The notes beneath the pieces are model-generated. The model worked only from the letters and a program-made list of their open reading frames with translations. It did not search any database and was not told where the DNA came from. Below are positions 16-24,821 of a stretch of 62,794 nt of DNA, piece after piece (the stretch's first letter is position 1; every line of letters starts with the position of its first letter). The stretch is from positions 1 to 62,794 of the forward strand of contig DULK01000032.1 of NCBI GenBank assembly GCA_012840385.1. The letters are read 5' to 3'. Made by a program: the position numbers and the translations under genes. The DNA is from Syntrophomonadaceae bacterium. Its GTDB lineage: Bacteria; Bacillota; DSM-12270; Thermacetogeniales; Thermacetogeniaceae.

Positions 16-3000
16 CTTTCAGTCCCCTTGTTATCGGGGTTATGAATGCAACGCTTCTGGAATACGGCCGTCTCAAGGGAATCAGCCAGCTTTCAGTCCC
101 CTTGTTATCGGGGTTATGAATGCAACGACTTGTCGGACATGGCGGGAAGTCAAAGTTCGGACTTTCAGTCCCCTTGTTATCGGGGTTATGAATGCAACAG
201 AGCTGCCCAGGCTGCGGAAAAGGCGGGGAACCTATACTTTCAGTCCCCTTGTTATCGGGGTTATGAATGCAACGGCGAACATCCTCAGCGAAGACCGGAA
301 ATTCGGGCTCTTTCAGTCCCCTTGTTATCGGGGTTATGAATGCAACGTGTTTGCTGAACTGGAGAGGAAACTTACGGCCGAGACTTTCAGTCCCCTTGTT
401 ATCGGGGTTATGAATGCAACAAGATTAGGCATCAACTCACCACCTTCGCAATTACCACTTTCAGTCCCCTTGTTATCGGGGTTATGAATGCAACAGCGGC
501 GCACCCTGGAGGGCACGGTGACGCAGGTTACTTTCAGTCCCCTTGTTATCGGGGTTATGAATGCAACCTTTCAGTTTTCCATAGGTCCAGGTAATGCCAT
601 TGCACTTTCAGTCCCCTTGTTATCGGGGTTATGAATGCAACGATGGGCACCGGCACGATCCGCACCTTAACCCGCAGGGCTTTCAGTCCCCTTGTTATCG
701 GGGTTATGAATGCAACAACTGTACCCGGAAGATGTCCGCCCTTTCCTCCGGAGTCTTTCAGTCCCCTTGTTATCGGGGTTATGAATGCAACATTCTTTGC
801 GAAGCGGTAGGCGAACATCTGCCCGATCTTTCAGTCCCCTTGTTATCGGGGTTATGAATGCAACGTAGTGGCCAGGCGGGCGATTGAACGGTTTGGATTC
901 CCCTTTCAGTCCCCTTGTTATCGGGGTTATGAATGCAACATAGTCCAGCGCACCTGAACGTTATCCGCGGTGCCGGTCTTTCAGTCCCCTTGTTATCGGG
1001 GTTATGAATGCAACAGCGCGAAGTGAGGCGCAGAGGGCTGAAGGTAGAGACCTTTCAGTCCCCTTGTTATCGGGGTTATGAATGCAACGTTGATTGGAAA
1101 GGGGATATTACTACTGCCTGTTTTGATCTTTCAGTCCCCTTGTTATCGGGGTTATGAATGCAACTACTGGGCCGCAGCTTTTCCGGCGGCAGAGGAATTG
1201 CCTTTCAGTCCCCTTGTTATCGGGGTTATGAATGCAACCTGCCTGGAAGCTTCAGGTGATGCAGGAAGCCCTGAAGGAACTTTCAGTCCCCTTGTTATCG
1301 GGGTTATGAATGCAACCCCTGTAATTTTCCCTGATGGCCTGGAGCACGTCCCTTTCAGTCCCCTTGTTATCGGGGTTATGAATGCAACACCCCGGGGACG
1401 TGGTGATCACATTCGGCAAACATAACTTTCAGTCCCCTTGTTATCGGGGTTATGAATGCAACGATGCTGCGCCTGGGTTGTCGGCGGAGACTGGATTTCT
1501 TTCAGTCCCCTTGTTATCGGGGTTATGAATGCAACAGTCCCGCTCAACCCACCGTCCGCCGACGACCCGGGCTTTCAGTCCCCTTGTTATCGGGGTTATG
1601 AATGCAACGCTACAGAGATAGGTATCACGTTGGTTTTCTCATACTTTCAGTCCCCTTGTTATCGGGGTTATGAATGCAACGGCAGGCTTGCTGGCGTCAG
1701 GGCCTGCCTGGATGGAGGCTTTCAGTCCCCTTGTTATCGGGGTTATGAATGCAACGGGGATTGCCACCAGATAACCGGCATTGGTCTCGGTTCTTTCAGT
1801 CCCCTTGTTATCGGGGTTATGAATGCAACGTAATGGTAGCGTTGCGGCATGGCAGGAAGGGGATCTTTCAGTCCCCTTGTTATCGGGGTTATGAATGCAA
1901 CCTGGTAATTTTTCAAAACAGCCCAGGTAAGCGATACTTTCAGTCCCCTTGTTATCGGGGTTATGAATGCAACTTCAAGATACTTCTCAGATGCCTTTTT
2001 AAACATCATCTTTCAGTCCCCTTGTTATCGGGGTTATGAATGCAACTCTGCGCGGGCGGCAGCCATTGCGTCTTGGGCTAACATCTTTCAGTCCCCTTGT
2101 TATCGGGGTTATGAATGCAACTTGGCATGGGCGCTGGCCGCCGTGCCATTCTGACCACGCCTTTCAGTCCCCTTGTTATCGGGGTTATGAATGCAACTAA
2201 GGGCGGTAATCAGGAGGGCCAAATCGGAAAGCTTTCAGTCCCCTTGTTATCGGGGTTATGAATGCAACTCAAAGAGGCTATGTTGTTTCAGCAAAAAGTA
2301 GTGGAACTTTCAGTCCCCTTGTTATCGGGGTTATGAATGCAACATGATGTCGGAGATTATCGCCGCTAGAGTCATGAGGACTTTCAGTCCCCTTGTTATC
2401 GGGGTTATGAATGCAACTTTATGGAGGTATAAGTATGTCTTCCCCAGAGGAGTCCTTTCAGTCCCCTTGTTATCGGGGTTATGAATGCAACGCTGGATAT
2501 GATACGGTGGTGCTGGAGAATTGTTTTAGCTTTCAGTCCCCTTGTTATCGGGGTTATGAATGCAACTTGAGGATGATGCGGGCAGACCGTCCCAGACGGT
2601 CCAGCCTTTCAGTCCCCTTGTTATCGGGGTTATGAATGCAACGCGGGTCGTAGAAGGCGGTCATGTCTTTACCTTCTGTTCTTTCAGTCCCCTTGTTATC
2701 GGGGTTATGAATGCAACAATTTTATCCTGCTGTTGGGCCAGCCATTCAGCTGTCCTTTCAGTCCCCTTGTTATCGGGGTTATGAATGCAACGGCCAGGCG
2801 CCCGCTCATCATCCGCCCCAGCATCTCATCTTTCAGTCCCCTTGTTATCGGGGTTATGAATGCAACGGGTGCGATTGCGTTTGGGCATCCTACGCTAACA
2901 AGGATCTTTCAGTCCCCTTGTTATCGGGGTTATGAATGCAACTATTTTCAAACGTAGTGCGTTCCTCACGGATCGCCTCTTTCAGTCCCCTTGTTATCGG

Positions 3001-6000
3001 GGTTATGAATGCAACAACGCACTAATGTGTATCTTGTGGTACAGGGGCGACCGAACTTTCAGTCCCCTTGTTATCGGGGTTATGAATGCAACCTCTTATG
3101 GCGTTGGCTCAGGAAATTGAACATGAAACTTTCAGTCCCCTTGTTATCGGGGTTATGAATGCAACTCGTGCGGCGGGCAAATAGGGTGCCGTCGGCAGCA
3201 ATGCTTTCAGTCCCCTTGTTATCGGGGTTATGAATGCAACTTTGGGCGAATCGGAGTACTTACATCCCAGTTTTGAAGCTTTCAGTCCCCTTGTTATCGG
3301 GGTTATGAATGCAACTCCTCTTTGTATGTTTTTGATTTTTGCTCCTCCAAGCCTTTCAGTCCCCTTGTTATCGGGGTTATGAATGCAACCGTTATTCCGG
3401 CTAGTACCCGGTATGGTCCTGGCCCCCTTTCAGTCCCCTTGTTATCGGGGTTATGAATGCAACTGCGATACACCAGACTGCTGAACAAGTACGCAAAGCC
3501 TTTCAGTCCCCTTGTTATCGGGGTTATGAATGCAACTTGACCGAGCGGTCATAGGTGCACTCAGCTTCTGGCTTTCAGTCCCCTTGTTATCGGGGTTATG
3601 AATGCAACTTCGATGGGCAAGGAAAGGTCTCCGTCCGCTATCAAACCTTTCAGTCCCCTTGTTATCGGGGTTATGAATGCAACTACGGAAGAAGCCGCCG
3701 TTCGCTGTTCCCCCGAAGCGGCTTTCAGTCCCCTTGTTATCGGGGTTATGAATGCAACGTGGATAAAAAATTGATAAGCCCCGGTTCAGGTCGCTTTCAG
3801 TCCCCTTGTTATCGGGGTTATGAATGCAACCAGGCACCAGTGCATAAGCGTGACCGTTTTCCCGGAACCTTTCAGTCCCCTTGTTATCGGGGTTATGAAT
3901 GCAACGCCCCGCAGGGATACCTGCCGAGACGTTAACCGTCTGCTCTTTCAGTCCCCTTGTTATCGGGGTTATGAATGCAACCCATGAGAGATGGGGAAAA
4001 TCCCTGTCTTACCGTTTCTTTCAGTCCCCTTGTTATCGGGGTTATGAATGCAACTGGATCAAGTTCCACTACGAGCCGCCCGAGGACCTGGCCTTTCAGT
4101 CCCCTTGTTATCGGGGTTATGAATGCAACCCGGACAGAGGGGAAATACTGGCTGATGTCGCACTTTCTTTCAGTCCCCTTGTTATCGGGGTTATGAATGC
4201 AACTTTTACCACCGTGCCGGCCGGAATGAGCAGGGGAGCTTTCAGTCCCCTTGTTATCGGGGTTATGAATGCAACCAGTAGGAAACGAAAGCCGGAGCCA
4301 GGCCCAGGTTGGGCTTTCAGTCCCCTTGTTATCGGGGTTATGAATGCAACCAATACAAGCTCTCATCCAAACCACCTCACTAAATTGTCTTTCAGTCCCC
4401 TTGTTATCGGGGTTATGAATGCAACCCAGTTCGTGCGGGAGTGTGCATCCGCAACGGTATTCTTTCAGTCCCCTTGTTATCGGGGTTATGAATGCAACTG
4501 GACTGAGCATCAGGGCTTCCCGCAGTGCCCTGTTCACTTTCAGTCCCCTTGTTATCGGGGTTATGAATGCAACGGCGGTGGCTGATGAGGTCAGGAAGTT
4601 GGAAAACCAAACTTTCAGTCCCCTTGTTATCGGGGTTATGAATGCAACAGTACTGGACGAAGGCATCGGTAGCCAGGATGCTGACTTTCAGTCCCCTTGT
4701 TATCGGGGTTATGAATGCAACTTTCTGATGTGCTACATATCCTTTTTTCCTTTGCTATCACTTTCAGTCCCCTTGTTATCGGGGTTATGAATGCAACCAA
4801 AACCGCAATGGCGGTCTCGTTTGGGGCTGTGTTCACTTTCAGTCCCCTTGTTATCGGGGTTATGAATGCAACAGTATCTAAAACATAATAACTGTATTCC
4901 TTGTTACAACTTTCAGTCCCCTTGTTATCGGGGTTATGAATGCAACAAGAAACCGTGGCACAAGAGTTCGGGGTTACTCCGGATCCTTTCAGTCCCCTTG
5001 TTATCGGGGTTATGAATGCAACAAAGATAAGGGATTCATCTATAACCGCACTAACGCTTGCTTTCAGTCCCCTTGTTATCGGGGTTATGAATGCAACCCT
5101 GAGCTGAGCATTGCAACCTGATCTAAATCTATTATCTTTCAGTCCCCTTGTTATCGGGGTTATGAATGCAACCTTTAATCTCAATCCAAAGCCCACCACA
5201 TTGGCCCGGACTTTCAGTCCCCTTGTTATCGGGGTTATGAATGCAACTTTTGATGCCCGCTTTCCTCAGGGCGCGCCTGGCTGCTTTCAGTCCCCTTGTT
5301 ATCGGGGTTATGAATGCAACGAACGACTACCCGCCCCAGCCGATACCGGGGCGCAAGGCTTTCAGTCCCCTTGTTATCGGGGTTATGAATGCAACTGTCT
5401 TGGCGAAGATGAAAATCCTCACCCGTGGGCCTTTCAGTCCCCTTGTTATCGGGGTTATGAATGCAACGGTATTTGGCCGAGAATGAAATTGTCCACCACG
5501 TCAACCTTTCAGTCCCCTTGTTATCGGGGTTATGAATGCAACTTCTGAAGCCCGAGTGTTCTGCTTGGAGCCGGTGCAGCCCTTTCAGTCCCCTTGTTAT
5601 CGGGGTTATGAATGCAACCCCGACCGGGGCATAACAGGCACCTTCCTGGTGCAGACTTTCAGTCCCCTTGTTATCGGGGTTATGAATGCAACAACGTACG
5701 CTCTTTATCCAGCATCACCTTTACCGGCTTCTTTCAGTCCCCTTGTTATCGGGGTTATGAATGCAACCACATAGGCAGGATTATTGGCGGAGATACTGGG
5801 AGGAATCTTTCAGTCCCCTTGTTATCGGGGTTATGAATGCAACTTCAGCTATTGCTTGTTACTGGCTCCAGCGGGTGCCTTTCAGTCCCCTTGTTATCGG
5901 GGTTATGAATGCAACGCCGTCCTGCGTTTCGTGCAGTTCAACCATTACGACTCTTTCAGTCCCCTTGTTATCGGGGTTATGAATGCAACAAAAACAGGCT

Positions 6001-6282
6001 CCGGGACGGAGCCGTCCACCACGACTTTCAGTCCCCTTGTTATCGGGGTTATGAATGCAACATAAATTGCGTTAATCCCGGCCGCCTGCAGTTTATCTTT
6101 CAGTCCCCTTGTTATCGGGGTTATGAATGCAACATCTGCCTCAGCCAGTCGGCCACCTCCTGGTAGGTACTTTCAGTCCCCTTGTTATCGGGGTTATGAA
6201 TGCAACCCTCCTTCCGCACCGGACCTCGGTGTGCACAGCGCAATCCTTTCAGTCCCCTTGTTATCGGGGTTATGAATGCAAC
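16..6282 (-). CRISPR. CRISPR array, 85 repeats of 37 bp
   Basis: I count 85 copies of a 37-bp repeat (first 16-52, last 6246-6282) separated by 84 unique spacers of about 35-39 bp; the mean period is 74.2 bp. The copies look identical. On the plus strand each begins CTTTCAGTCCCC and ends GGTTATGAATGCAAC. Read on the minus strand it starts GTTGCATTCATAACC and ends GGGGACTGAAAG. The ACTGAAAG end resembles the usual 8-nt crRNA 5' handle of type I/III systems, and the inner CCCC/GGGG arms form the short Cas6 hairpin. Orientation, the leader and the cas genes all indicate minus-strand transcription, so the newest spacers lie near 6246. No degenerate end repeat is seen, and the array runs off the left edge. 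Repeat-encoded open frames in this stretch are not genes. Confidence 0.99.
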
Positions 6283-6662
6283 CGCATCAGGCCGGATGGT
6301 TCAAAGCCTTACCGTACAGGGGATTCCGCGATATGTTAAACCGCTTTCCAAGGTAAAAATTTCGAAGCGAAGAATTTTGCACGGAAATCTTCTCCTCATT
6401 CGAAAATTTCGAAAACGCATTTTGTCAAGCAACAATAGCATTTCCAGGAACTTTTATGGCAGCTTTTACACTGGCAGATATCAGAAATTTCCTCCCTGGG
6501 CTCCTCTTTCGAAAAACCGTTGACAGATAACGAAACTTCACTACGGTTAGGAACACAAACGACCAACCGGCGGGAAAACCCTATTTTGTTACCGATCTTA
6601 CCAAATATTCTTCCCTATTGGAACCTTTCTCCTTTATTTCAAGAAAATTTATACCAGAGAAT
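6283..6662 (-). promoter_or_regulatory. CRISPR leader
   Basis: This 380-bp AT-rich, gene-free stretch lies between the last repeat and csa1, on the side where a minus-strand leader is expected. On the minus strand it contains a TTGACA box (6423-6428) about 140 bp before the first repeat; the matching -10 is weak. It also has several TTCGAA-centred palindromes, including TTCGAAAATTTCGAA near 6400-6416, a related TTCGAAGCGAA at about 6360 and a half site near 6510. These could bind a regulator or integration host factors. The leader role follows from position and repeat orientation; the promoter assignment is tentative. Confidence 0.8.
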
Positions 6663-7619
6663 CTACGGAATTGATGAAGGCAACAATTCGGGATTACCCT
6701 CAGCGCAGCAAACATGATAAAAGGGACAGGTGGCAGGGCAGTCGTCGGCCAGGCCGGGGTCAATTTCTTCGGCGACGAAGCGCGCCTTCTCATCGCGCTC
6801 CTCGATGAACCACTGCCGCAATTCATCGCTGATGATGTGAATATCTCGTTTTACAATCAGCCTGTCTCCCCTGAACTCACCGTAAATAATGCACCCCAGG
6901 TTCACCGGAAACTCGTAGAGGGCCTCCATCACCAGGGCGTAGCCGGTGGTACCCAGTCTGTGGAAATCCCGGGGCTCCCCGAATTTCAGGTCGAGGATCA
7001 TCGGCTCGGAAAAGATAAAGGCGTCCGTGCTTAAGTTACCGCTCAAGCCGAGAAAGGCCCCGTTGAGCTTCTGCTCTACTACAACCGGAATCGTGAGATT
7101 TGCAAGGGAATCCTCGCCAATGTAAGGGTACCGGGAGAGCACCTCTTGGAGGCGGGAGAGCACCCGCGCCTTTTCAAAGCTGCACAGGATCTCCACTTTT
7201 CTGCACAGATCGGCCGCCTCCGCCTCGGAAAGACCTGTAAGTGGAAGCGGCGCCGCCGGGGCGTACTTTTCGACGGTTTCGCAGATTGCCCGGTAGTTCT
7301 CCGTTCCGTGAAGGTAAATCGCCCGCTTCGCAGATACAAGAAGATCGGCCAGGATCTCATGGAGAACTGCCCCCTGAATCATGGCAGGGTTAGGTTCTCC
7401 CTTGATTCCATGTACCCGGCGCAGGAAGACATCCCGGCCGGATGGGCAGTACTTGCCGGCTACCTCGTACAAAGCGAGAACCGCCCCGTAGACAGGCTCC
7501 AGTGGAGGCTGGTGCCAGTTCCAGCCCCGCAACTCCTCGGCTACCCCAAGCTCCCGAGCTTTTGGAAGGTAGTAGCGCAGAAGCTGCTTTCTCTCGTCAT
7601 CAGCCAGAAAATACATCAT
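6663..7619 (-). CDS. csa1: Cas4-family protein Csa1 (second Cas4)
   Basis: This 318-aa protein belongs to the Csa1 branch of the Cas4 RecB-like nucleases. The N-terminus carries the family signature LRGWNWHQPP (residues about 30-39), followed by YCPSGRDVFLRRV and a helical nuclease core with VEQKLNGAFLGLSGNL and LDLKFGEPRDF. The C-terminus has a Cys cluster (CPATCPFYHVCC) for an Fe-S cluster. It is the last cas gene before the leader and overlaps the cas4 stop by 4 bp (ATGA), so the two are probably co-translated. Where paired Cas4 proteins have been studied (Pyrococcus), they set spacer length, PAM end and orientation. Csa1 is typical of subtype I-A, so its presence in a I-D locus is noteworthy. 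Confidence 0.88.
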   Translation of the reverse strand: MMYFLADDERKQLLRYYLPKARELGVAEELRGWNWHQPPLEPVYGAVLALYEVAGKYCPSGRDVFLRRVHGIKGEPNPAMIQGAVLHEILADLLVSAKRAIYLHGTENYRAICETVEKYAPAAPLPLTGLSEAEAADLCRKVEILCSFEKARVLSRLQEVLSRYPYIGEDSLANLTIPVVVEQKLNGAFLGLSGNLSTDAFIFSEPMILDLKFGEPRDFHRLGTTGYALVMEALYEFPVNLGCIIYGEFRGDRLIVKRDIHIISDELRQWFIEERDEKARFVAEEIDPGLADDCPATCPFYHVCCAEGNPELLPSSIP

Positions 7620-8242
7620 CCCACATCCCCGCAGTAGTTCTTGTACTCACAGTCGGCACACCGTCCCGCACTCCGGGATACGGCCGGAAAATGCTCCCGC
7701 CTGATTAGGGCGCGGATTGCTCCCAGAAGCCGCTTGGTATAGAGCCGGGCCTCGGGAGTGGCCTCTACGTAGACAGCGCGCCCTGCAGGAATTAGATAGA
7801 TAAAGCCGCCCCGCACAGGGTGCCCGAGCCGGTCCTCCAGCAGGAGGGCGTAGGCTAGAAGTTGGTATTTATGGTTGACCGCCAGGCGGCAAGTATTCTT
7901 GAAATCAACGGGAAAAGACCCCCGGGGAACGGCGATATACATGTCAAGCACCCCCTCCAGCCCCAGGCGAGGTGAGAAGAGGGGGGTGTTAAAGAACCGC
8001 TCCCCTTCCGCGAGGCCGTAGACGCGCAGCCGACGGCGCCCCTCAAGTTTCGCCGTTTTCATGTGCTCCTCTTTGCCAATCTCCATTTTGGAGGTCGTCC
8101 TTTTCTCCACCGGCAAAACGTAAGTAAAGTAGATGATCCTGGGACAGTAAAGATACTGCTTGATGTCGCTCACCTTTAAGATAGGTTCCAAATCAACATC
8201 CCTCTCAAGCAGGATCGTAGCGGCAGAATTACTTGAAACCAT
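7616..8242 (-). CDS. cas4: Cas4 exonuclease
   Basis: This 208-aa PD-(D/E)XK nuclease takes part in pre-spacer trimming and PAM selection. It shows the order typical of Cas4: an early Cys within SDIKQYLYCPRIIYF, the nuclease motifs GVLDMYIAVP and FPVDFKNT (the VDFK catalytic strand), a QLLAYALLLE helix, and a C-terminal CADCEYKNYCG cluster that completes the 4Fe-4S site. It sits between cas2 and csa1 in the adaptation block. The 172 bp upstream of it contain no gene, only a tandem GTTACATTAT-like decamer near 8250-8270. The ATG at 8242 has little SD, so a slightly later start is possible. Confidence 0.93.
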   Translation of the reverse strand: MVSSNSAATILLERDVDLEPILKVSDIKQYLYCPRIIYFTYVLPVEKRTTSKMEIGKEEHMKTAKLEGRRRLRVYGLAEGERFFNTPLFSPRLGLEGVLDMYIAVPRGSFPVDFKNTCRLAVNHKYQLLAYALLLEDRLGHPVRGGFIYLIPAGRAVYVEATPEARLYTKRLLGAIRALIRREHFPAVSRSAGRCADCEYKNYCGDVG

Positions 8243-8414
8243 CTCTCTTGGGTTACATTATGTTACATTATCAGTGACCACCAACACCCAGGAGGAGATA
8301 ACATCGCCCAGCTTTCCATAAACAGGCTTTAGGGAAACGGGTGTTAGCTGACCGGAATTCATATACCCGAAGCTCGCAAACCTGATTCCAGGACCGGTGG
8401 TTTCCACAACCCAT

Positions 8415-8717
8415 CTAGATAACCAGCGGCCCCTTTTGCAGCCCCGCCACCTTGCGGGAGAAAGAATCCGTCTCCGGAACCGCAACCTCGAGGATCAGAG
8501 AAAGGTCCTTATCGCAAACAGGGCAGATGAGAATCTTCCCCTCTTTGTCTCCAAGGACCCGGCACAGGCGCTGCTGCAGTTCCTGGCGCCGGTTATGGTT
8601 CAGTTCCCCGAAGAAGGCCGAATACTGGATGTGCACGAGACCGTAATCTTTGCAGGTCTCAAAGGCCTTGGTCCGGATCCGGTCATCGGGAATATCGTAA
8701 ACAACAAGAGTCTTCAA
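8415..8717 (-). CDS. cas2: Cas2
   Basis: Cas2 forms the core of the Cas1-Cas2 spacer integrase. The protein starts MKTLVVYDIPDDRIRTK, the ferredoxin-like first strand with its conserved Asp, and continues with a helix and SAFFGEL, then a second half with ILICPVCDKDL. I prefer the TTG at 8717, which has a GGGGGTGG Shine-Dalgarno 5-6 nt upstream and gives the standard N-terminus (100 aa). A GTG three codons earlier is also open. It lies directly after cas1 and before cas4, completing the adaptation set. Confidence 0.93.
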   Translation of the reverse strand: MKTLVVYDIPDDRIRTKAFETCKDYGLVHIQYSAFFGELNHNRRQELQQRLCRVLGDKEGKILICPVCDKDLSLILEVAVPETDSFSRKVAGLQKGPLVI

Positions 8718-8839
8718 GCTTTCCACCCCCAGCGTTTCACCCGCTCGGGAATTTCTTAAAATCCAAAAATCAGAACAGACATAGGACCAATCAAAGTAAT
8801 CGGAAGCCGTCAGGGCGCAGCGGAGATTAACAGCCGGGA

Positions 8840-9853
8840 CTACCAGCCGGCAATAAAGGGCTTATACTTCCCCTCACCTCTCAGGTAGGTGGCAACCCGC
8901 CTTGCCTGCCGCTGGATAATCGATCTCATCTTGTATTTTTTCCCCTCGTAATTCTCCTCGCCCTCAAGGCGCTCCAATACCCGCCTGGCAAGCTCGCGAC
9001 GGGTTTCTTCCGTGAGGCTCCCTTCTTCCTGGGCAATCGCGGTGCCCCGGAGGATCATGCCGATTACCGTGCGGTCCACGGTGCAGGCGCGGAACTCCTC
9101 GGTCAGGTCGAGCACAAGGCTAGGCTTGCCGGGTCGGTCGGTATGGAGAAAGCCGGCGAAGGGCTCCAGCCCCGCCAGCATGACCGCCCCCCAGACCTGG
9201 GAGTAGAGTATGCCGTAGCCGTAGTTCAGTGCTGAGTTCACGGGGTCCTCGGCGCCCCGGCGCTCCCGGCCGGCGAACTCGATCTTTTGCCCGAGCAGGA
9301 GACCCACCCCTTCCCAATAGGCCTGGGCGGCACGGCCTTCGATGGAGAAGATATTACCCCGTGCCTCATCTACCGTTCCGCCAGAAATACCCTCCAGTTC
9401 TTTTTTGATTTCCTCTATTGCGGTGATCCGGGAGGTTAACTCCTGGTAAAGGGCGGGATCGGAGGCCCGCCGGTACTTCCCGAAGTATTTCAAAACGTTT
9501 ACCTGGTTCCGGAGCTTCCCGTCGATGAAGGCCAACGCCAGGGCCAGCCCGCGGCCGTCGTTGTAGGCAAGGATCTGTTCCCTGCGGGTGAGCACCGTTC
9601 CGCTCAACTGAGGGGAGGTCACCTTGGCGTAGGGCTTGCCCGAAGGGGTCAGGAAGTTGATCTGGATTCCGTGCTGAATGCACTCGAGCACCACATCAGA
9701 GGAAAGGGAGACCCCACGCGAGGCAATGGTGAGGCATGTGATATCCTGGAAGGGTATCTCTCCTATCACCTTGCCCTGCTCTTTGATGACCAGCCGCTCG
9801 CTTTTCTTCCCCAAAGTCGTCCCGAAGTTTATGATGAAGATTTCGGACAGCAC
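8840..9853 (-). CDS. cas1: Cas1 integrase
   Basis: This 337-aa Cas1 is the spacer-integration nuclease. The N-terminal beta domain (MLSEIFIINFGTTLGKKSER) is followed by the all-helical catalytic domain. Visible family features are SSDVVLECIQHGIQINFL, an ARGNIFSIEGRAAQAYWEG segment with the first metal-binding Glu, LNYGYGILYSQVWGAVMLAGL (conserved YG and the helix before the His), and GFLHTDRPGKPSLVLDLTEEFR with the catalytic His and Asp/Glu. Length and motifs are complete. The GTG start is preceded by GGGGGTGAT. A DUF4282 membrane gene ends 35 bp upstream, so the adaptation genes are probably read from the same long minus-strand transcript. Confidence 0.96.
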   Translation of the reverse strand: MLSEIFIINFGTTLGKKSERLVIKEQGKVIGEIPFQDITCLTIASRGVSLSSDVVLECIQHGIQINFLTPSGKPYAKVTSPQLSGTVLTRREQILAYNDGRGLALALAFIDGKLRNQVNVLKYFGKYRRASDPALYQELTSRITAIEEIKKELEGISGGTVDEARGNIFSIEGRAAQAYWEGVGLLLGQKIEFAGRERRGAEDPVNSALNYGYGILYSQVWGAVMLAGLEPFAGFLHTDRPGKPSLVLDLTEEFRACTVDRTVIGMILRGTAIAQEEGSLTEETRRELARRVLERLEGEENYEGKKYKMRSIIQRQARRVATYLRGEGKYKPFIAGW

Positions 9854-9888
9854 GCATCACCCCCGACGGCCGCACCGCCATCTAAACT

Positions 9889-10248
9889 TTAAGAATCCGG
9901 CCCGGCTTCCTTCGCGCCTTCGCTGCTCTCAGGCCGCCCTCCCCCGCCGGCCCGGACAAGAGTCGACGTGTTCTCGGCAATGCGAAAAAGAACAATAATC
10001 GTCTCCATCCAAACCCGGCCGCCGATCACCCAGAGGAAAAAGAAGACCACCGCCCAGATCAGAGAAAGAAGAAAGACCCCAGCCGAAATGTAGCCGAAGG
10101 GCATTACACCCTTTCCCATGAGCATGCCCAGCGCCCCGATGGCCCCGATGGCAATCCACAGGCTGTACAACACCTTGATAACCTTGAGGGTTACAAAAGA
10201 AGAAAAGGAAAAATCAAACAGTTGGGACCAGAAACCCCTCTCCTGCAT
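9889..10248 (-). CDS. DUF4282 membrane protein (intact copy)
   Basis: This 119-aa protein fits the DUF4282 family. It has an N-terminal LFDFSFSSFVTLKVIKVLYSL segment, two hydrophobic spans (about residues 27-45 and 55-78), and the terminal motif VWMETIIVLFRIAENT. The family's function is unknown; it is a small inner-membrane protein with a cytosolic tail. It sits between the ATPase cassette and cas1. A second, broken copy with near-identical central sequence lies at 13428-13769, on the other side of the same cassette. It is therefore either an old I-D locus passenger duplicated when the cassette entered, or part of the cassette. Confidence 0.85.
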   Translation of the reverse strand: MQERGFWSQLFDFSFSSFVTLKVIKVLYSLWIAIGAIGALGMLMGKGVMPFGYISAGVFLLSLIWAVVFFFLWVIGGRVWMETIIVLFRIAENTSTLVRAGGGGRPESSEGAKEAGPDS

Positions 10249-10310
10249 CGTTTAACCCCCCTTATTGTGAGGCGAAGCACCGCTCCCGCTTGATCAAAGC
10301 CTTGGATGCT

Positions 10311-11520
10311 TTAAACGTCCACGTTCTCTACCGCGTCCCCCGCTGCCGCGGCCTCATCCAGCGCCAACTCCTCGGGGGTCCCCGCCAGCAACTGGGGCTC
10401 CTCTCCGTAAAGGTATTTCAGGTCAAGGTATTCCAGGGCATAGCGGATCTTAGTCCGCAGGCGGGCGTGCTTGGTGGCTTCCAGGATCGCGTCAATGTCC
10501 GCCTCCGGTTCCCAGCCATAGGCGCTGGCGTGTAAATCCCGCACCGCCGCCAGCATCCGTCGCACCTCCCCTGCCGGCAGGGTCTCGAGCGCAACCGCGT
10601 CCTGCAAAAGGGTATTCATCACCCTCCGGACGAGGTCTGCCCGGTGTGGTTCCCCTCTTGCAACCAGCCGGCGCGGCAACTCGTCGATGTCCGGCCGCCG
10701 GCTGCGCAACAAGACATCCGGCCAAAACCTCGAGGCAACGCTGAAAACAACATAAGTGGAAACCAGGAAATCCGCCTCTCCCGGTAAAAGGAACCGGCCC
10801 AGATTGGTATAAGCGTCGGCGCGGGCGGCAATCCCCATGGTGCCCACAAGTTCGAACTCATCGAAAAGGACAAGCCAGCCTGCACACCCTCTTCGCTTGA
10901 TGAGATTGGCCAGCAGCCGGAAATAGTCCCAAACGTCGGCCTTCGGCCGGAACCTGTCGATCTTCGCCGAGCGTCCAAAGTTCCTCTTGTGCACCGCCTT
11001 CAACTGGTCGACGGGCAGCCAGTGCCCGGCAAGGTCGCCGGCAAGGTCGTGCAGGTCTTGCGTGTCCCCAGCTTCGAAGTAATTCTCGAGGACGTAGAAG
11101 ACCTTGGAATGCAACTTGTGCCGTGCAAAAGTGAGGATTTCTTCGCCTATGGCGCTCCCCGGCCGGACATCCCGGAGCAGAGCTTCGATCCCCGGTTCTA
11201 CCTCACCGGGAAGGTAGGTGCCGGCAACCACTTTCGGGTACACGCGGTCGAGACGGCTGAACGGGGTTTCCTTACTAAGTACGACAAAACTGACCGCAAA
11301 ATTCTTTTCCTGCGCCCTGTTGAAAATAACGTTCAAGAGGTGTGTTTTTCCCTCTCCGTAATCGCCTTTTAATACCAGCACCCGTGAACTTTCGTCCCCG
11401 GCCGCGGCGTCGAGGTCCCTCTGCATTTTCTCCAGGAGCCCCTCGCGCCCGTAAGAGAAAATGGCCGAAAGGTGCCGGGAGGAGATACCCGAGCGCAGCG
11501 CTTCGATCACGCGGACCGCC

Positions 11521-11534
<14 letters not shown>
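10311..11534 (-). CDS. BrxD/DUF2791-like P-loop ATPase (cassette gene A)
   Basis: This is about a 407-aa ATPase of the DUF2791/BrxD-like family known from BREX and related anti-phage islands. With the TTG start at 11534, Walker A is GDYGEGKT at residues 57-64, followed by HLLNVIFNRAQ, SFVVLSKETPF (a family block), and Walker B GWLVLFDEFEL at about 219-229. A helical C-terminal region follows. I chose the TTG (or the GTG at 11543) because an AGGGGGT SD sits just upstream and because the frame extending to 11684 would overlap gene B by 160 bp and adds low-complexity, non-family sequence. It is the last of three translationally coupled genes. Its role in a CRISPR operon is unknown; an ATP-driven DNA- or effector-remodelling function is inferred. 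Confidence 0.85.
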
Positions 11535-13427
<1,893 letters not shown>

Positions 13428-13769
13428 CTATCCTCAGGCTGCCCTCCCCGGCCGGCCCGGACAAGAACCGACTTGTTCTCGGCAATGCGGAACGATAATT
13501 GTCTCCATCTAAACCCAGCCGCCGATCACCCAGAGGAAAAAGAAGACCACCGCCCAGATCAGGGCAAGAAGAAAGACCACAGCCGAAATGTAGCCGAAGG
13601 GCATCACACCCATACCCGTGAGCATGCCAAGCGCCCCGATGGCCCCGATGGCAATCCACAGGCCGTACAAGACCGGAGTGATCCTCAACGTGGCTACCGT
13701 AAAAAAGGAAACCCGAAAGGCCGGGAGAAAGGATTTTTCGGTTATTAACAAGCGAGGCTTACTCCCCAT
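13428..13769 (-). pseudogene. Broken second copy of the DUF4282 gene
   Basis: The centre of this stretch is nearly identical to the intact DUF4282 gene at 9889-10248, sharing LWIAIGAIGALGML and WAVVFFFLWVIGG. The copy reads ...VIGGWV and then meets a TAG where the intact gene has TGG (stop at 13509-13511). Just downstream the segment encoding IVLFRI carries a short deletion that changes frame. The IAEN and VRAG codons that follow can still be recognised down to about 13430. The N-terminus also differs from the intact copy. It lies between the Cas3 helicase gene and cassette gene C, so the pair brackets the cassette. Most likely a dead duplicate. Confidence 0.85.
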
Positions 13770-13849: not shown

Positions 13850-15841
13850 TTACGCGTTATCTTGGTGCTGCTTCCACATCTCACACACCACAAGTGCCGC
13901 CCCGTCGAAAATGGCAGCCTTATTTCCTTGAGAGCCGCACCTAAACCAGGGAAGGCGCCAGTCTAATCTCCTGGCAAAATCGAGAGGCACCAACACGAAT
14001 ATATGGGGCCGCATGGTGAAGAGGTGTGAAATACTTGTAAGGTGGTTATCCTGCAAGACCTTAAGGGATGGATAGTCGGTCGTGGTTAGTATAATCCCCA
14101 CGTCTTCGTCCTCAAAGGACTCGGAGAGATGAAGTTTGTGAGGCTTTCCGGCACGAAAACCATCTATGTATATCGTGTCGCTTTTCTCCTTATACCGTGG
14201 AGAGCGGTTCCCCCACTTGAGGAGGGTGATCAGGTCGGCCTCGTATTCCGGAGAACGTCCACGTCCCGCTTCAGCCCAATCGTATACCGGTACCGTCGGG
14301 ATCGAACTCCGGAACCCAACTTCATCAATGTATTCCGTTATCCACCGCCCTACAGTCCCCCCTTGCCTGGCCTGCTTCACCCGCTTTTTTACCAGCGCCA
14401 GTTGCTTCTCCCAACCCATCCTTTTCCCAAATCCATCGATCACGCTATCCAACCAGGCGCCGATTTCTGCTTTGGCCGTTTCAATACCCATTTCATCCTC
14501 CTCAACCCGACGGCGGATCGATTCGGCCTGGGCAACCATTGTTAAGGCCCCGCAGAATGTGGCAGGGAACCAGGCAAAGGCATCACGGCCTTTGTATATC
14601 CGATTGACCATCTGTTCCAATGCATCCCGGTGCACCTCGTCGGGGAGAGATCGGAACGCAGCCTCCTCGCGGCTATCGCTTAAAAGGATAGCCGTCCCTG
14701 GGCCGTGCCGACCAACCCGGCCAATTCGTTGTAAAAATGACGCTGCATCCCCCGCCTCAAACAAGAGTAAACCAGTCTTGAAATCAATTCCCACCTCGAT
14801 AGCCGATGTCCCAATGACAACAACCCGGCCCGCAATCTGCCGCTCTTCTTTGGCCATCAGACCTCGTACAACACCGATCTTCCCCCTGTCCCAACCCGCT
14901 TCTACCAGGAGGTCTTCCAGCCGGATGGCAGAAACCACCGAATTCAAAATGACCACTGCAGGCACATATCCCTCATCCGAATTCGCTTTTCTCGCAGCTT
15001 CCAGTTCGTCTCTCCTCTCCTGGAGGTACGCAAAAGCTGCCTCTACTTCGTCCGAGCCGGAACCCGTACACTCAAAATTCAACGGAAATGTGGCTATTCG
15101 CTCCCCGGCACTAGTATGGAAAGTCTTCGCTTCTGAATCAAGCAGCAGCGGATCCTCTAGTAATTTATTAAGCAAATTAAGAACCTCAGGAGACGGTGTA
15201 GCCGAAAGGAGAACTACCCGGCTAAATCCACCGAATTGCCGGACGAGGTGGATTAAAAACAAGGCATGGGCCAGTTCAACCCCTGAATACAAGTGGAACT
15301 CATCGAACACTACCGTTCGATAGGCCTGAAAATGGGCCATCAACTCGGGACTTGCTCGCCTGTACTTAAGTGAAAAGATCAGGTAGAGGAGGTCGGGATT
15401 AATGAGCAAGATCTTGGGCCGGGATGGTTGAATCAGCCGTAACAGGGCAGAACCTTTGTCTCTGAGCTTCATCGCAACCCGAAACTCTTCTAGTCTATGC
15501 GCGTCAATACGTATTAAATGGTAATCTTCCCCTCCGAATTTTTCATCTACGTTATCGGGGGAAAGCACCCTGACAGAGACACCTTCCCGTTCCAACAGGG
15601 AGAGGATCGACCGTTCCTGATCCGCAATAAGGGCATTAGTAGGGTACACAAAAACAGCCGACTCCTTATGGTAAATAACTGGTAGCGTCGAAGCTGCGGT
15701 CTTCCCACTTCCGGTCTTGGTCACGAGGATAAAGGCGTCCCTTTGCTCCCAGGCATCAAGCAGGGCACATTGATGCTGGTACAGAGGCATCTTTGCCGCC
15801 GGATGGTGATACAACCTCATCGTTGTCCCCAGAACCCGCAT
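13850..15841 (-). CDS. cas3: Cas3 helicase, subtype I-D (no HD domain)
   Basis: This 663-aa superfamily 2 helicase unwinds target DNA after recruitment by the Cascade-like complex. Walker A is TKTGSGKT (residues about 41-48), box II is VVFDEFHLYSG (the DEFH variant seen in I-D Cas3 proteins), motif III is LLSATPS, and motif VI is QRIGRVGRHG. There is no HD nuclease domain; in subtype I-D that activity sits in Cas10d. I prefer the ATG at 15841, which has AAGGTGA 8 nt upstream, over the GTG at 15853. It lies 80 bp after csc1. The closest established family is the cyanobacterial-type I-D Cas3. Confidence 0.92.
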   Translation of the reverse strand: MRVLGTTMRLYHHPAAKMPLYQHQCALLDAWEQRDAFILVTKTGSGKTAASTLPVIYHKESAVFVYPTNALIADQERSILSLLEREGVSVRVLSPDNVDEKFGGEDYHLIRIDAHRLEEFRVAMKLRDKGSALLRLIQPSRPKILLINPDLLYLIFSLKYRRASPELMAHFQAYRTVVFDEFHLYSGVELAHALFLIHLVRQFGGFSRVVLLSATPSPEVLNLLNKLLEDPLLLDSEAKTFHTSAGERIATFPLNFECTGSGSDEVEAAFAYLQERRDELEAARKANSDEGYVPAVVILNSVVSAIRLEDLLVEAGWDRGKIGVVRGLMAKEERQIAGRVVVIGTSAIEVGIDFKTGLLLFEAGDAASFLQRIGRVGRHGPGTAILLSDSREEAAFRSLPDEVHRDALEQMVNRIYKGRDAFAWFPATFCGALTMVAQAESIRRRVEEDEMGIETAKAEIGAWLDSVIDGFGKRMGWEKQLALVKKRVKQARQGGTVGRWITEYIDEVGFRSSIPTVPVYDWAEAGRGRSPEYEADLITLLKWGNRSPRYKEKSDTIYIDGFRAGKPHKLHLSESFEDEDVGIILTTTDYPSLKVLQDNHLTSISHLFTMRPHIFVLVPLDFARRLDWRLPWFRCGSQGNKAAIFDGAALVVCEMWKQHQDNA

Positions 15842-15933
15842 GTGCCCCGTCACCTTACTTTCCCTGCGATCGACCCACCAAAAACCTCATCAGCCAACGC
15901 GCAGATTTCGCGCCCCATTTTCTCACCCCGCCT

Positions 15934-16680
15934 TCACCCTTGTCGCCTCGGTTCTAAATCAGGTATGCTCAAACTCTCTCGTACCCGCTTCGGCAACAGG
16001 ACCATCCTACCATCAGCGTTCACAAACCAGTCTCTGCAAATCTCCGCCCTGCGGAACAGCATATGAGGAGGCAGGATAATAGGTTCGTAAGAGAGAACCT
16101 CCCCGGAGATGTCTAGCGGGTTTATGGGATGCACCGGAACAACAGCTTCCTCCCGGAAGAAAGCCAGAGGGGATTCAATTCGCCTCCAGTATATACGAAC
16201 CGGGCATCCTTTCTTACCAAGCCGTGTAACAGAGGGGGGACGGTATCCTCCGCGTACGAAACAAAAGAAGTTATAACCACCTTCCAGGCGACGCCCCTCC
16301 CGCAGTAGTTCAAAGTAAGGATTCACGACCACACGCTTGCCAAGGTTCGGTGTGTTGATTTTTCCTCCTGCATCAGTACGCAAGGTAAGATCATCCATGG
16401 CATTCAATGTGATGGCAATCCTGGTAACAGACGAACAGATAGCAGGCGTCGTATATAGAGGCATTGATGCAAGATCTTCTTCATAGTGAGGATAGTTGCC
16501 TCTGGACAAGCCATGCGAGTATTGTGCGAGAGAATAACTTAGGGCGTAGTTATGGATAACCGGCCAGGTAGAAGATACCTTAGCAATCTCCGTCGAAGAA
16601 AACCAAAGGTAATCATGGTTGTAAAGCCGCCCTTCCAATAACGAGTAGCCGGCTTCCTCGAGATTGATAACTTTAGACAT
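15934..16680 (-). CDS. csc1: Csc1, Cas5-type subunit of I-D complex
   Basis: This 248-aa RAMP protein is the Cas5 subunit that holds the crRNA 5' handle. Family cues are an early LLEGRLYNHDYLWFSSTEI, a conserved central NALDD-like segment (ALNAMDDLTLRTD), TPNLGKRVVVNPYFE, and a C-terminal half with FVRGGYRPPSVTRLGKKGCPVRI. It lies 6 bp after csc2 and 80 bp before cas3, in the usual I-D order. The length is normal for Csc1. Confidence 0.92.
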   Translation of the reverse strand: MSKVINLEEAGYSLLEGRLYNHDYLWFSSTEIAKVSSTWPVIHNYALSYSLAQYSHGLSRGNYPHYEEDLASMPLYTTPAICSSVTRIAITLNAMDDLTLRTDAGGKINTPNLGKRVVVNPYFELLREGRRLEGGYNFFCFVRGGYRPPSVTRLGKKGCPVRIYWRRIESPLAFFREEAVVPVHPINPLDISGEVLSYEPIILPPHMLFRRAEICRDWFVNADGRMVLLPKRVRESLSIPDLEPRRQG

Positions 16681-16686
16681 AACGCA

Positions 16687-17613
16687 TTACCCTTTCTGTT
16701 GTTTGCGGTACTCGGCTACGTCAGCGTAAGCTCTATCAAGGAACTCCTTATTTAGGAGCATACTGGCAGCCTCTTTTACGACCTTGTCCACCTCTTCGGG
16801 GGTTAACACTTTCGTTTTAAGGGGGTTGCCTGCGTATACTTGGTACTTTTTAAGAATTTCGGCTACCGCTTCGCCTGAAAGCTCTTCTCGCCTGTCATAC
16901 AGCTCAAGGGTCAACTCCAGAGGAGTGATGATTTCTTCCCATCCTCCCGCAATACCGACAATTGTATTACGGATATCCCCGCCTATACGAGTTTCTGCCC
17001 CATAGTTTTTCGCTGCCAGCAAAGTCTTGAGGGCAAGAATCAACTCCCTTTCGGTTACGGACTTTAAGGTTACGATGGAAGGGAAAACCGTTGACGGCCG
17101 GACAGCGTAACGAGTCCCTAAAGCCTGTCCTGTTTTCTGGGTTTGATCATCTATGGCGTTGAAGGTGATCGCCTCTTCAATTTCTTCAAACGGAAGCAGG
17201 GAAAAGGCTGTACCATACTCGATCCGATGCTTGATATTAGCTATCTTTTCGCTGGCCGAATCGACATTGGTTCCCCCAAATAGGGCACACCGAGGACAGT
17301 TCAAGCACAGCTTATCCTTCAGGTGACAGTTCAGCTCCCCGCGTCCGGCTTCCTCCCCTGCGGTTCTAAGCATCCGCTCCAACTCCCGTGATTCCACCGC
17401 TTTCTGCTTGGTCCCGAGGAAAGCCACCCGCCGCACATCCTCAGACCTTGAGACCGAAAGTGGCGTTACCACTGTGTTTAACTCACGGGTTTCCTCAGTA
17501 CGCAATACCGTGTAGTCTAACACCTCCCTGAAAATTACAATCTGCACCGTCTTGGCACCGATGATCGGCCGGGGTACATCAACCAGGTAAGGGCTCAATA
17601 GATCGAGGCTCAT
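16687..17613 (-). CDS. csc2: Csc2, Cas7-type backbone subunit
   Basis: This 308-aa protein is the I-D Cas7, which polymerises along the crRNA spacer. It opens MSLDLLSPYLVDVPRP and has the Csc2 features FREVLDYTVLRTEETRELN, a Cys cluster for zinc (CHLKDKLCLNCPRCALFGG, residues about 97-115), FNAIDDQTQKTG, and the Gly-rich RIGGDIRNTIVGIAGGW. The start at 17613 is set by a GAGGAGGAG Shine-Dalgarno 8 nt upstream; the open frame continuing to 17637 would run into the previous gene. It lies 4 bp after the 207-aa gene, implying coupled translation. Confidence 0.95.
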   Translation of the reverse strand: MSLDLLSPYLVDVPRPIIGAKTVQIVIFREVLDYTVLRTEETRELNTVVTPLSVSRSEDVRRVAFLGTKQKAVESRELERMLRTAGEEAGRGELNCHLKDKLCLNCPRCALFGGTNVDSASEKIANIKHRIEYGTAFSLLPFEEIEEAITFNAIDDQTQKTGQALGTRYAVRPSTVFPSIVTLKSVTERELILALKTLLAAKNYGAETRIGGDIRNTIVGIAGGWEEIITPLELTLELYDRREELSGEAVAEILKKYQVYAGNPLKTKVLTPEEVDKVVKEAASMLLNKEFLDRAYADVAEYRKQQKG

Positions 17614-17617
17614 AATT

Positions 17618-18241
17618 TCACTCCTCCTCTTCTTCAATATCCTCTTCTAGTTCAAGGCTGGCATAGAAGGCATCGATATCTTCCTTGCGTTTCCCTTTGC
17701 CTTTCCGGTAGGCCTCATTTTTTCTGCTGGGGTAAACCTCAAAGGTTGCGTTTTTATCCTTCCAGGCCTCCCGGAGAGCTTCAACCGATTCATAGCGAGA
17801 TCGAAGAAATTTCTCGAATTCCTTCCTGATGCTCTCCATCCATTCGCTGGCCCTCTTCCTCCGGCGATAGTAAAGGGCGTATTCCAGCCTCTCCAACACC
17901 TTGGCCAGCGCCGTAACCGGGACTATGTGTGTGAGGCGTATCAACTCCTGAACGCCGCTTTCCATGGCAGCACGCGCTTCCGCAGGAACAAATCCTCTCG
18001 CCTTGGGATTCATCTCGTGTACCCTCAAAGCGTATCCTGCCAGAGCCTCCGCCGACCAGTGACCTGCTCCTGCCCGCTCAAGGATCTTGGCCACCGGCCC
18101 CATCACCGCGTGTTTTGTCCGGCCCAGCCGGTAAGGAGAGGCTTCCAGGTAACGGTCAAAGGCATCAATTACCGCTTCCATTTGCGGGTTAACAGTGGAG
18201 AGGTCAAACCTCTCGCCCCGCGTCACCAAAGGTTTCCTCAT
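17618..18241 (-). CDS. Helical 207-aa protein between cas10d and csc2 (possible separate Cas11-like small subunit)
   Basis: I do not recognise a named family. The protein is almost entirely helical. Residues 25-120 contain regularly spaced Ala/Leu helices (AVMGPVAKILERAGAGHW, EALAGYALRVHEM, ALAKVLERLEYALYYRRR). A basic segment with FEKFLRSRYESVEALREAW follows, and the tail is acidic (about 12 Glu/Asp at the end). It overlaps the cas10d stop by 4 bp (ATGA) and ends 4 bp before csc2, so it is made in step with the effector subunits. In other I-D systems the helical Cas11d subunit comes from internal translation of cas10d. Position, size and helicity make a stand-alone Cas11-like subunit plausible, but this is inference. 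Confidence 0.8.
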   Translation of the reverse strand: MRKPLVTRGERFDLSTVNPQMEAVIDAFDRYLEASPYRLGRTKHAVMGPVAKILERAGAGHWSAEALAGYALRVHEMNPKARGFVPAEARAAMESGVQELIRLTHIVPVTALAKVLERLEYALYYRRRKRASEWMESIRKEFEKFLRSRYESVEALREAWKDKNATFEVYPSRKNEAYRKGKGKRKEDIDAFYASLELEEDIEEEEE

Positions 18242-21030: not shown

Positions 21031-21050
21031 AAATGTCCCCCCCCAAACAT

Positions 21051-21285
21051 CTAACTGGTTATTTTGATGGCATCCCGCAGTATCTTGCTTTTCCATTCCT
21101 CAAACCCGGCCTCCACGTCATCGTAGTAGCGGATGCAGCCCAGTAATAAGCGCGGGTATTTTTCGTAAGCGGTAGGCCCGCGCGCTCAAAAAGAGGGGCA
21201 AAAGGTCACCTCCTAGCCGGTCAAGTGTGCGGAAGAGAATCTGGCAGAACTCGTACAATTCCGTTGTGTTTACCTGTCTTGGCAT
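21051..21285 (-). pseudogene. Small frameshifted ORF before cas10d
   Basis: An ATG at 21285 sits behind a textbook AGGAGGTGA. It opens MPRQVNTTELYEFCQILF and reads to a TGA at 21118 (55 aa). Around 21160-21180 coding character moves to the +1 frame, which continues AYEKYPRLLLGCIRYYDDV and ends ...AIKITS at the TAG 21051, just 20 bp before cas10d. Joined, the product would be about 78 aa and helical. Either the gene is broken by one indel, the assembly has an error, or frameshifting is used. Family unknown; the strong SD says it was translated. Confidence 0.6.
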
Positions 21286-21297
21286 CGTGTCACCTCC

Positions 21298-21432
21298 TCA
21301 ATTTGCTGTCGCCGCAAGGTGCGTTTCTCCATACTTAACCCGAGTGTAGGCTTGGAAAAGATCCTTCACCGGTTCAGGAACGTTTTCGTCTGTCTCGGGC
21401 GGCTGGTTGGTAACCAAAACAGACAAAGGCAT
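21298..21432 (-). CDS. 44-aa small protein
   Basis: This is a short ORF with a GAGGAGG Shine-Dalgarno 9 nt before the ATG. It begins MPLSVLVTNQPPETDENV, continues VPEPVKDLFQAYTRVKYG and ends with TGA. The stop overlaps the SD of the next small ORF (21285), so the two are arranged like a coupled pair. The sequence is proline- and acid-rich at the start, then helical. No family is recognised. Size and tandem arrangement recall toxin-antitoxin or anti-sigma-like micro-pairs, but nothing in the sequence proves it. Confidence 0.5.
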   Translation of the reverse strand: MPLSVLVTNQPPETDENVPEPVKDLFQAYTRVKYGETHLAATAN

Positions 21433-22149: not shown

Positions 22150-22170
22150 GAAAATCAGCCTCCTCACCAG

Positions 22171-22650: not shown

Positions 22651-23637
22651 TCATCTCCCGCTCGACGCGCCCTTATATAATGCCACAACAGCCTCCGCCT
22701 CCGCGGCCACTTCCTCCCGCAGGCTCTCCGGGGCGAGGACCTCGGCGTGGCTGCCGTACCCCATCACCCACCGCCTGACCTCCGCCAGGCCGCCGGTCCG
22801 GAAGCGGAGGATCAAACCCCCGTCCGCCAGTTCCTCTACTTCCTGGGTGGGATGCCAGCGCCGCTCCCGGATGTAGCGGGCCTGGTAGGGATCGAAACGG
22901 ATCGCCACCTCCACCGGCTCCTCCCCCCGCTCCAGCTGGAAGGCCTGCGCCATCCACTCTTCCAGGCGAAAGCCGGAGTCGCGGGTGAATCCGGAGGCCA
23001 GCACCTCCCAGCGGTCGACGCGGCCGGTATGGAAGGTACGGAAGGCGGAGCGCAGGTGGTCGAAGGCGATCAAATACCAGTCGCCGCCCCGGTTGTAGAG
23101 GTGGTAGGGGTCCACCACCCGCTCCTGCCAGCAGCCCCTGCTCGCGGTGTAGTAGTGAATCCTTACCTGATGTCGCTCCTGGATCGCTCGGTGCAGGTCA
23201 AGGAGGAAATCTTCCCGGGCTCCTGCAATGGGAAGAGGGGCAAAGGCATAGCATTCCCGCAGTTCCTCCAGGTTTACCTCTACCGGGGCTTTCAGGCTGC
23301 CTGTAATTTTGGCAACTGCCGAGCGCAGGGCGGCCTCAAAGGGGGTGCCCAGGCAGCGGCGCGCCGCCTCCACGCTCAGAAAGAAGGCCAAAAGTTCTCC
23401 CTCGGTCATCAGCACCGAAGGCAACACCCAGGTGGGATCGGTGTAGTACCAGCCGCCACGCCGCCGGTCGTAAGCCAGGGGAGCGCGCAGCCTGTCCAGG
23501 AGGAACTGCCGGTCCTGGTAGATGGTCCGCTCGCTCACCTCCAGCTCCCGGGCGAGGCTCCTGGCGCTCGGGTACAACCCTGCCCTTACCTGGCGGTCGA
23601 TTTCCATGATTCGCTCGAGCTGCTGCCTTCCGGACAC
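22651..23637 (-). CDS. WYL-domain transcriptional regulator
   Basis: This 328-aa protein has an N-terminal winged helix of the DeoR/YafY type (SARSLARELEVSERTIYQDRQFLLDRL, residues 25-50), then a WYL sensor domain (residues about 140-220; VVDPYHLYNRGGDWYLIAFDH contains the W-Y-L core), and a C-terminal WCX extension (EVAIRFDPYQARYIRERRWH). The GTG start has GGAGAGG upstream. WYL proteins sense ligands or nucleic acids, and one of them (Sll7009) represses the I-D CRISPR locus of Synechocystis. Here the gene lies between cas6 and the effector genes, so control of this locus is a reasonable inference. The TTCGAA palindromes of the leader are possible targets. Confidence 0.92.
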   Translation of the reverse strand: MSGRQQLERIMEIDRQVRAGLYPSARSLARELEVSERTIYQDRQFLLDRLRAPLAYDRRRGGWYYTDPTWVLPSVLMTEGELLAFFLSVEAARRCLGTPFEAALRSAVAKITGSLKAPVEVNLEELRECYAFAPLPIAGAREDFLLDLHRAIQERHQVRIHYYTASRGCWQERVVDPYHLYNRGGDWYLIAFDHLRSAFRTFHTGRVDRWEVLASGFTRDSGFRLEEWMAQAFQLERGEEPVEVAIRFDPYQARYIRERRWHPTQEVEELADGGLILRFRTGGLAEVRRWVMGYGSHAEVLAPESLREEVAAEAEAVVALYKGASSGR

Positions 23638-24751: not shown

Positions 24752-24821
24752 GGTAAAACACCTGCCGCTTTCTGACGAACTCAATTAAAGCCAACTGTTA
24801 ACACGAATGGTGTCGAAATAA

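Follow-up and report, generated by a model that had tools for sequence, protein, structure and literature searches.

The DNA stretch analysed here (the window) is the entire contig C15 (62,794 bases) of the 2.70-Mb draft genome, in 105 contigs, of a Syntrophomonadaceae bacterium, and carries at its left end an array of clustered regularly interspaced short palindromic repeats (CRISPR) belonging to a complete type I-D CRISPR-Cas locus, with genes at 6663-24784 (table 1). The locus belongs to type I-D and shows variant features, namely CCN beside the protospacers, a separate cas11d gene and a three-gene insert with two BrxD-like ATPase genes. Its effector was probably exchanged in place and would serve a CCN memory that a conserved adaptation module has written. 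The shuffling of effectors in situ is a known trend, a published criterion being one Cas1 cluster at 90% identity beside effectors of different clusters (PMC12669027), and for type I-D, too, shuffling of the effector genes has been noted where the adaptation genes or cas6 are conserved (PMC10212523). Such shuffling is inferred from mismatched gene trees; what stands out here is a well-documented case within one family, with four close frames carrying four cassettes, phages and motif common across subtypes, and a gene relic.

A conserved frame with different effectors

The frame around the effector is shared with three relatives, G005, G006 and G011. Cas1 of the window is 95% identical to that of G011 and of G005 and 93% identical to that of G006, and Csa1, Cas4, Cas2, the WYL regulator and Cas6 are 79-93% identical to their counterparts in these relatives (WYL, 86-93%; Cas6, 79-86%). 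Between the halves of the frame, G006 carries a type I-B effector with Cas8b, G011 another type I-B effector, 52-64% identical to that of G006, and G005 a different type I-D effector with a 686-residue Cas10 and a separate HD protein. The type I-B (Cst2/Cas8b) loci of G006 and G011 share with the window the leader and repeat family, the Csa1-Cas4-Cas2-Cas1 set, WYL and Cas6, G006 sharing also the CCN motif and the same phages; together with Ammonifex sp. SURF_55, also of type I-B, they differ from it in the effector cassette. In G006 the array contig (C81) and the I-B cas contig (C27) overlap by 77 identical bases inside the leader.

Across 13747-21067 no nucleotide match to G005, G006, G011 or the locus L076 was found. 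Cas10d of the window is matched in eight of 299 genomes, own genome included and four of them weakly, strong matches being confined to three more distant members of the phylum (G103, G134 and G147); the ten relatives listed from the genus and family gave no match.

Next to the cas10d start lies a fragment that matches the beginning of a cas11d gene of the G005 type; its frame is broken and it is truncated near codon 82. The simplest account, in which the direction and order of the exchange are inferred, is that a G005-like I-D cassette formerly occupied this site and gave way to the one now present. About nine codons at the beginning of the cas10d open reading frame lie within the relic, and the homologues in the alignment mostly start near residue 23, so that the true cas10d start is probably near 21030.

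Published cases of in situ effector-module shuffling (PMC12669027; archaeal, PMC4390879) likewise have close Cas1 proteins beside unlike effectors, with the protospacer-adjacent motif (PAM) tracking Cas1, repeat and leader. The present case differs from them in the broken cassette relic at the junction and in the protospacer evidence, which comes from two species with different effectors.

The present effector has the hallmarks of type I-D: genes for Csc1 and Csc2 (TIGR03159 and TIGR03157 above cut-off), a Cas3' separate from the HD nuclease (TIGR03158 above cut-off, no HD family on that protein) and an HD-bearing Cas10d (PADLOC match, structure matches, H96-D97 invariant in six of six aligned sequences). 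As for type I-B (Cas8b, I-B Cas7 and Cas5, fused HD-helicase Cas3), no I-B effector family exceeded its curated cut-off among the scanned cas proteins of the window, whereas G006 has such a set and G011 has one as judged by similarity to that of G006. The AlphaFold2 model of Cas10d, built from six sequences, has a mean predicted local distance difference test score of 71, and its four best matches, in both Foldseek and VIA-align, are the solved Cas10d chains 7sba, 6thh, 6yes and 7sbb (versus 7sbb: Z 17.1, root-mean-square deviation 5.5, 469 residues aligned; versus 7sba: Z 16.1, deviation 5.2, 651 aligned). Sequence comparison of Cas11d with solved structures returned no convincing relative (best E 0.41).

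Protospacers and their motif

Protospacers first emerged when the array was compared with the genomes of relatives, 348 of them with two candidates scored per listed genome and 28 chosen ones with up to ten each, 16 of which gave a match; misses are likely at this depth. Related phage loci were then collected, and the 84 spacers of the window array and eight more from a second array of the genome (C65, see below) were compared with 229 phage loci (208 from IMG/VR and 21 genome stretches, 3.12 Mb), with reversed and de-interleaved spacers as controls. Protospacers with up to eight mismatches were found for 33 of the 92 spacers (32/84 in the window, 1/8 on C65; 16 exact), a fraction that is not an unbiased rate, the loci having been gathered partly via phages already matched and some of them overlapping on one contig. 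The two control sets gave no match at up to eight mismatches, one each at ten, and 13 and 14 at 11. The proposal of the initial annotation that the spacers record phages and plasmids is therefore borne out for phages; as to plasmids, comparison with 72,556 plasmid records returned three weak partial matches (E 0.04-0.1), which were treated as chance. No match was found among 50,697 phage records, and an exact scan of IMG/VR with a degenerate form of spacer 33 found nothing. Within the own genome, all 19 candidates obtained at E 0.001 were scored and the array matched only the two arrays themselves.

When the best protospacer of each spacer is considered, strict CC stands at positions -3/-2 in 28 of 33 and GT in none; as background, CC accounts for 7.7% of all dinucleotides in a sample of four stretches that carry phages. 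CCN occurs alike at leader-near spacers (2 and 3) and at a leader-far one (83). In G006, with its type I-B effector, 12 of 36 spacers have protospacers with up to six mismatches, all 12 with CC, and in G005 the single match among 112 spacers is flanked by CCT. Since CC is also seen in these two, the motif goes with the adaptation module. The same has been described in Sulfolobales: there the PAM co-evolves with Cas1, repeat and leader, while interference modules swap partners (PMC4390879).

Which effector reads the CCN memory

In the mechanism that we propose, Csa1, Cas4, Cas1 and Cas2 would select and cut CCN-flanked phage DNA and insert it at the leader end, on the right side of the array; Cas6 would process the minus-strand array transcript, and the effector would be the type I-D complex of Cas10d, Csc1, Csc2 and a separate Cas11d, acting with Cas3'. 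Leader, repeat family, adaptation genes, WYL and Cas6 form a frame common to the relatives, into which different effector cassettes would have been exchanged; here a G005-like I-D cassette would have been swapped for the present one, leaving the broken cas11d fragment at the junction. On this proposal the present effector would read CCN targets.

Several observations weigh against it. Studied type I-D complexes have a GTN or GTH PAM (PMC10212523, PMC9123187), so that CCN is unexpected for a type I-D effector; GTN, absent here, is a trait of the studied systems and not a classification criterion, and the motif reported here is that found beside protospacers. Five of the 33 protospacers (spacers 15, 30, 62, 72 and 82) lack strict CC, with CC shifted by one base in 30 and 62 and an exact target flanked by CTT in 72. 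The NCBIfam Csc3 model scored Cas10d at 22.9 bits, under its cut-off of 60, and Pfam gave no match to this protein. On its contig C39, G006 carries another Cas1 fragment, near-identical to the first and cut by the contig end, with no effector in the stretch covered. No spacer is shared exactly with 281 spacers from relatives, which gives no support to an array older than the exchange. Finally, two type I-B loci in the own genome (C3 and C53) could act on the array in trans.

The disagreement between CCN and the GTN of studied complexes leaves two ways out: either CCN is accepted by this Cas10d lineage, as may have been the case in the donor too, or part of the memory is stranded. There may be no PAM conflict at all, the Cas10d lineage travelling with this Cas1/Cas4 clade and the donor being already a CCN reader, so that the exchange took place between matching cassettes; we judge this about as probable as its opposite. 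It agrees with the finding that five of 80 named loci (L081, L086, L096, L114 and L148; four have titles of other phyla, one that of Thermincola) carry the Cas10d lineage next to a Cas1 from this broad clade, at 44-57% identity, and with the type I-D system of Sulfolobus acidocaldarius, a counter-example to GTN-only reading, which cleared CCN, GTN and TCN targets alike (PMC10577407). However, no protospacers were found for G147, the sole such donor with extracted arrays (50 spacers), and Cas10d is too diverged from 7sba for a sequence comparison of the PAM residues: its alignment to the Synechocystis chain covered residues 75-320 only, and the PAM-reading residues K326 and G433 lie outside. 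In the literature searched, with subscription papers largely outside its coverage, no description of a bacterial type I-D array with CCN was found. A stronger version of the exchange, in which the 84-spacer array was at least partly written under an earlier effector and the incoming I-D effector took over this memory, its new Cas10d reading CCN, is rather doubtful. If it were true, immunity could outlast effector replacement, and exchange would be constrained by compatibility of PAM and CRISPR RNA (crRNA) handle, which is directly testable. As the same phages and motif are met from two frames, one can ask whether memory stays usable when the effector changes, and whether the adaptation module sets PAM reading or the effector must match it.

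Phage targets and the order of the spacers

The IMG/VR contig 3300034524_000062 (35.6 kb) carries protospacers of ten spacers (2, 3, 26-31, 71 and 76), eight of them exact, and the same ten, with weaker matches of spacers 53 and 56, fall on a prophage in a same-genus genome (contig C6 of G001). Matches of the ten proteins scanned on this prophage include small and large terminase, portal, head protease, tail sheath, tape measure, baseplate wedge and reverse transcriptase. The G001 prophage contig is also met by eight of the 36 spacers of G006, in which nine matched spacers stand in a row (11-19).

Six consecutive spacers (26-31) among the 11 on the G001 prophage were obtained in ten of 200,000 random orders. 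Array neighbours with a common target contig number eight, against 2.36 expected (reached in 35 of 50,000 random orders), and co-target pairs within three positions 22, against 6.98 expected (0/50,000), merging having been limited to contigs recognised as the same. Consecutive spacers from one phage presumably reflect primed or repeated uptake. That they reflect naive uptake in repeated infections, and not priming, is only slightly less probable than its contrary: block 26-31 derives from both strands of the prophage, from sites separated by as much as 20 kb, and several phage groups recur along the array. The runs of six here and of nine in G006 exceed chance clustering, as priming predicts, although naive uptake in one outbreak predicts the same.

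Spacer 9 (5619-5655) and spacer 16 of a G005 array share 92% identity over 37 nt, so that both species seem to have taken up one and the same site from related phages. The most targeted phage contains what looks like a diversity-generating retroelement (G001:C6:48765-52104; L155:8766-12105), with a reverse transcriptase bearing an LTSQ motif, typical of such elements, and a pair of 126-nt repeats that differ at 13 positions, 11 of which are adenines in the template copy. Spacers 27, 29 and 31, and spacer 7 of C65 with nine mismatches, fall in the reverse transcriptase gene; among the protospacers mapped to this prophage, not one lies in the putative variable repeat.

Type I-B loci of the same genome

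It is improbable that one of the genome's own type I-B effectors reads the array in trans and that the I-D effector is idle or reads something else. CCN is indeed the motif of the type I-B relative G006, but the repeats of C3 and C53 differ in sequence from that of the window, a Cas6-like protein, scored at 43.7 bits against a cut-off of 58.65 that it does not reach, is encoded at the C53 locus itself, and the I-D genes are open and adjoin the array.

Beside the type I-B locus on C53 stands the largest array of the genome (at least 132 repeats; the window array is smaller). Six of 129 spacers of this array (G000:C53:32299-41069; L037, L176) match the same phage set with up to six mismatches, five of the six with a 3' TGG (apart from one offset), which is CCA on the opposite strand. 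The third CRISPR locus of the genome, on C3 (L036), belongs to the Csh kind of type I-B; it has at least 31 repeats and encodes a protein of the TIGR02221 family.

Anatomy and uniformity of the array

The repeat CTTTCAGTCCCCTTGTTATCGGGGTTATGAATGCAAC occurs in exactly 85 copies between 16 and 6282, its minus-strand (crRNA) form being GTTGCATTCATAACCCCGATAACAAGGGGACTGAAAG, and the 84 spacers are 34-41 nt long with no two alike; a Hamming scan of both strands of the whole window found no further copy with 1-14 mismatches, in agreement with the initial count of 85 unmutated repeats and 84 spacers. Identical repeats, unique spacers, a leader and protospacers with a motif identify it as a CRISPR array. 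It is transcribed on the minus strand, since the leader, on its right side, is homologous to G005 leaders; in G005 the homologous leader likewise abuts the first repeat, and the orientation is also backed by the 5' CCN motif that appears in the minus-strand reading.

From repeat uniformity and the missing end repeat, the initial annotation had concluded that acquisition was recent or very active. Relatives with the same repeat family can have arrays just as uniform (identical repeats in 112/113 in G005, 37/37 in G006 and 27/27 in G127), so that uniformity does not support this conclusion; the arrays of G147 (32/34 and 14/19) and G037 (39/42) are less so. No end repeat is seen at the left, as had been noted, because the contig ends there, which removes its meaning as a sign of activity. 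The 15 bases ahead of the first repeat may be a piece of another spacer or trailer.

The second array with the same repeat (C65:66556-67188) has nine identical copies and eight spacers, none in common with the window array; non-array DNA flanks it on both sides, and its flank has no convincing similarity to the window leader. Collapsed assembly as the cause of uniformity and length is very improbable: the array does lie at a contig end of a draft of 105 contigs, but its 84 spacers are all different, 33 of the 92 spacers map to phage loci from other sources, and G005, a single-contig genome, has the 112 identical repeats already mentioned.

Genes of the locus

The functions listed in table 1 are putative, being assigned by family membership. 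As in the type I-D systems of Synechocystis, S. islandicus and S. acidocaldarius (PMC10212523, PMC9123187, PMC10577407), Cas3' stands apart from an HD-bearing Cas10d and is accompanied by Csc1, Csc2, Cas4-Cas1-Cas2 and Cas6. The window locus differs from these in having CCN rather than GTN beside the protospacers, in the BrxD-like trio, and in a separate cas11d gene, present also in related loci, whereas a type I-D review among these sources describes Cas11d as produced by internal translation within cas10d and calls this widely conserved.

Table 1. Features of the type I-D locus of the window, with positions in the window.
Feature	Position	Strand	Evidence and remarks
CRISPR array	16..6282	-	85 identical 37-nt repeats, 84 unique spacers; spacer 1 closest to base 6282
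Leader	6283..6662	-	59% A+T; abuts first repeat; homologous to leaders of two G005 arrays and one G006 array
Csa1-type Cas4	6663..7619	-	TIGR01896, 217.5 bits (cut-off 103.35)
Cas4	7616..8242	-	TIGR00372, 113.8 bits (cut-off 65)
Cas2	8415..8726	-	TIGR01573, 51 bits (cut-off 24.5)
Cas1	8840..9853	-	TIGR00287, 268.9 bits (cut-off 71.7)
DUF4282 protein gene, intact copy	9889..10248	-	PF14110, 73.8 bits; present in G005 and G011 too
Three-gene insert (trio)	10311..13406	-	BrxD-like ATPase reading frames 10311-11684 and 11521-12525 (PF10923, 90.7 and 40.7 bits); 294-residue protein 12522-13406
DUF4282 gene, second, broken copy	13433..13746	-	Far side of the trio
Cas3' helicase, type I-D	13850..15853	-	TIGR03158, 164.3 bits (cut-off 69.1)
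Cas5d/Csc1	15934..16680	-	TIGR03159, 66.4 bits (cut-off 41.4)
Cas7d/Csc2	16687..17637	-	TIGR03157, 116.7 bits (cut-off 38)
Cas11d small subunit, own gene	17618..18241	-	PADLOC PDLC01194, 250.3 bits
Cas10d/Csc3 large subunit, HD motif	18238..21096	-	PADLOC PDLC01192, 1165 bits
cas11d relic, broken, of G005-type I-D cassette	21068..21317	-	89.6% nucleotide identity over 250 bases
WYL/WCX transcriptional regulator	22651..23637	-	PF13280, 75.8 bits; PF25583, 84.1 bits
Cas6 endoribonuclease	23762..24784	-	PF10040, 74 bits; PDLC01477, 317.1 bits

The trio also sits between cas1 and the type I-B effector in G006 and in Ammonifex sp. SURF_55, and was not found at the G011 or G005 loci. Its distant relatives (about 30%) occur in two longer stretches, L035 and L038, the latter with BrxC of the bacteriophage exclusion (BREX) system beside them, and no cas gene was found in either. 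With such a distribution, the BrxD-like trio was rejected as a core part of type I-D. Its 294-residue protein has no family match. The two DUF4282 copies around the trio suggest that it arrived with a duplication.

G006 has a lone stretch 86% similar to the array repeat (contig C27; L031:4465-4506), placed between its cas1 and its BrxD-like genes. Elsewhere in the window, the minus strand has a molybdenum/tungsten cofactor riboswitch at 39490-39609, and positions 57779-57935 hold a TwoAYGGAY RNA.

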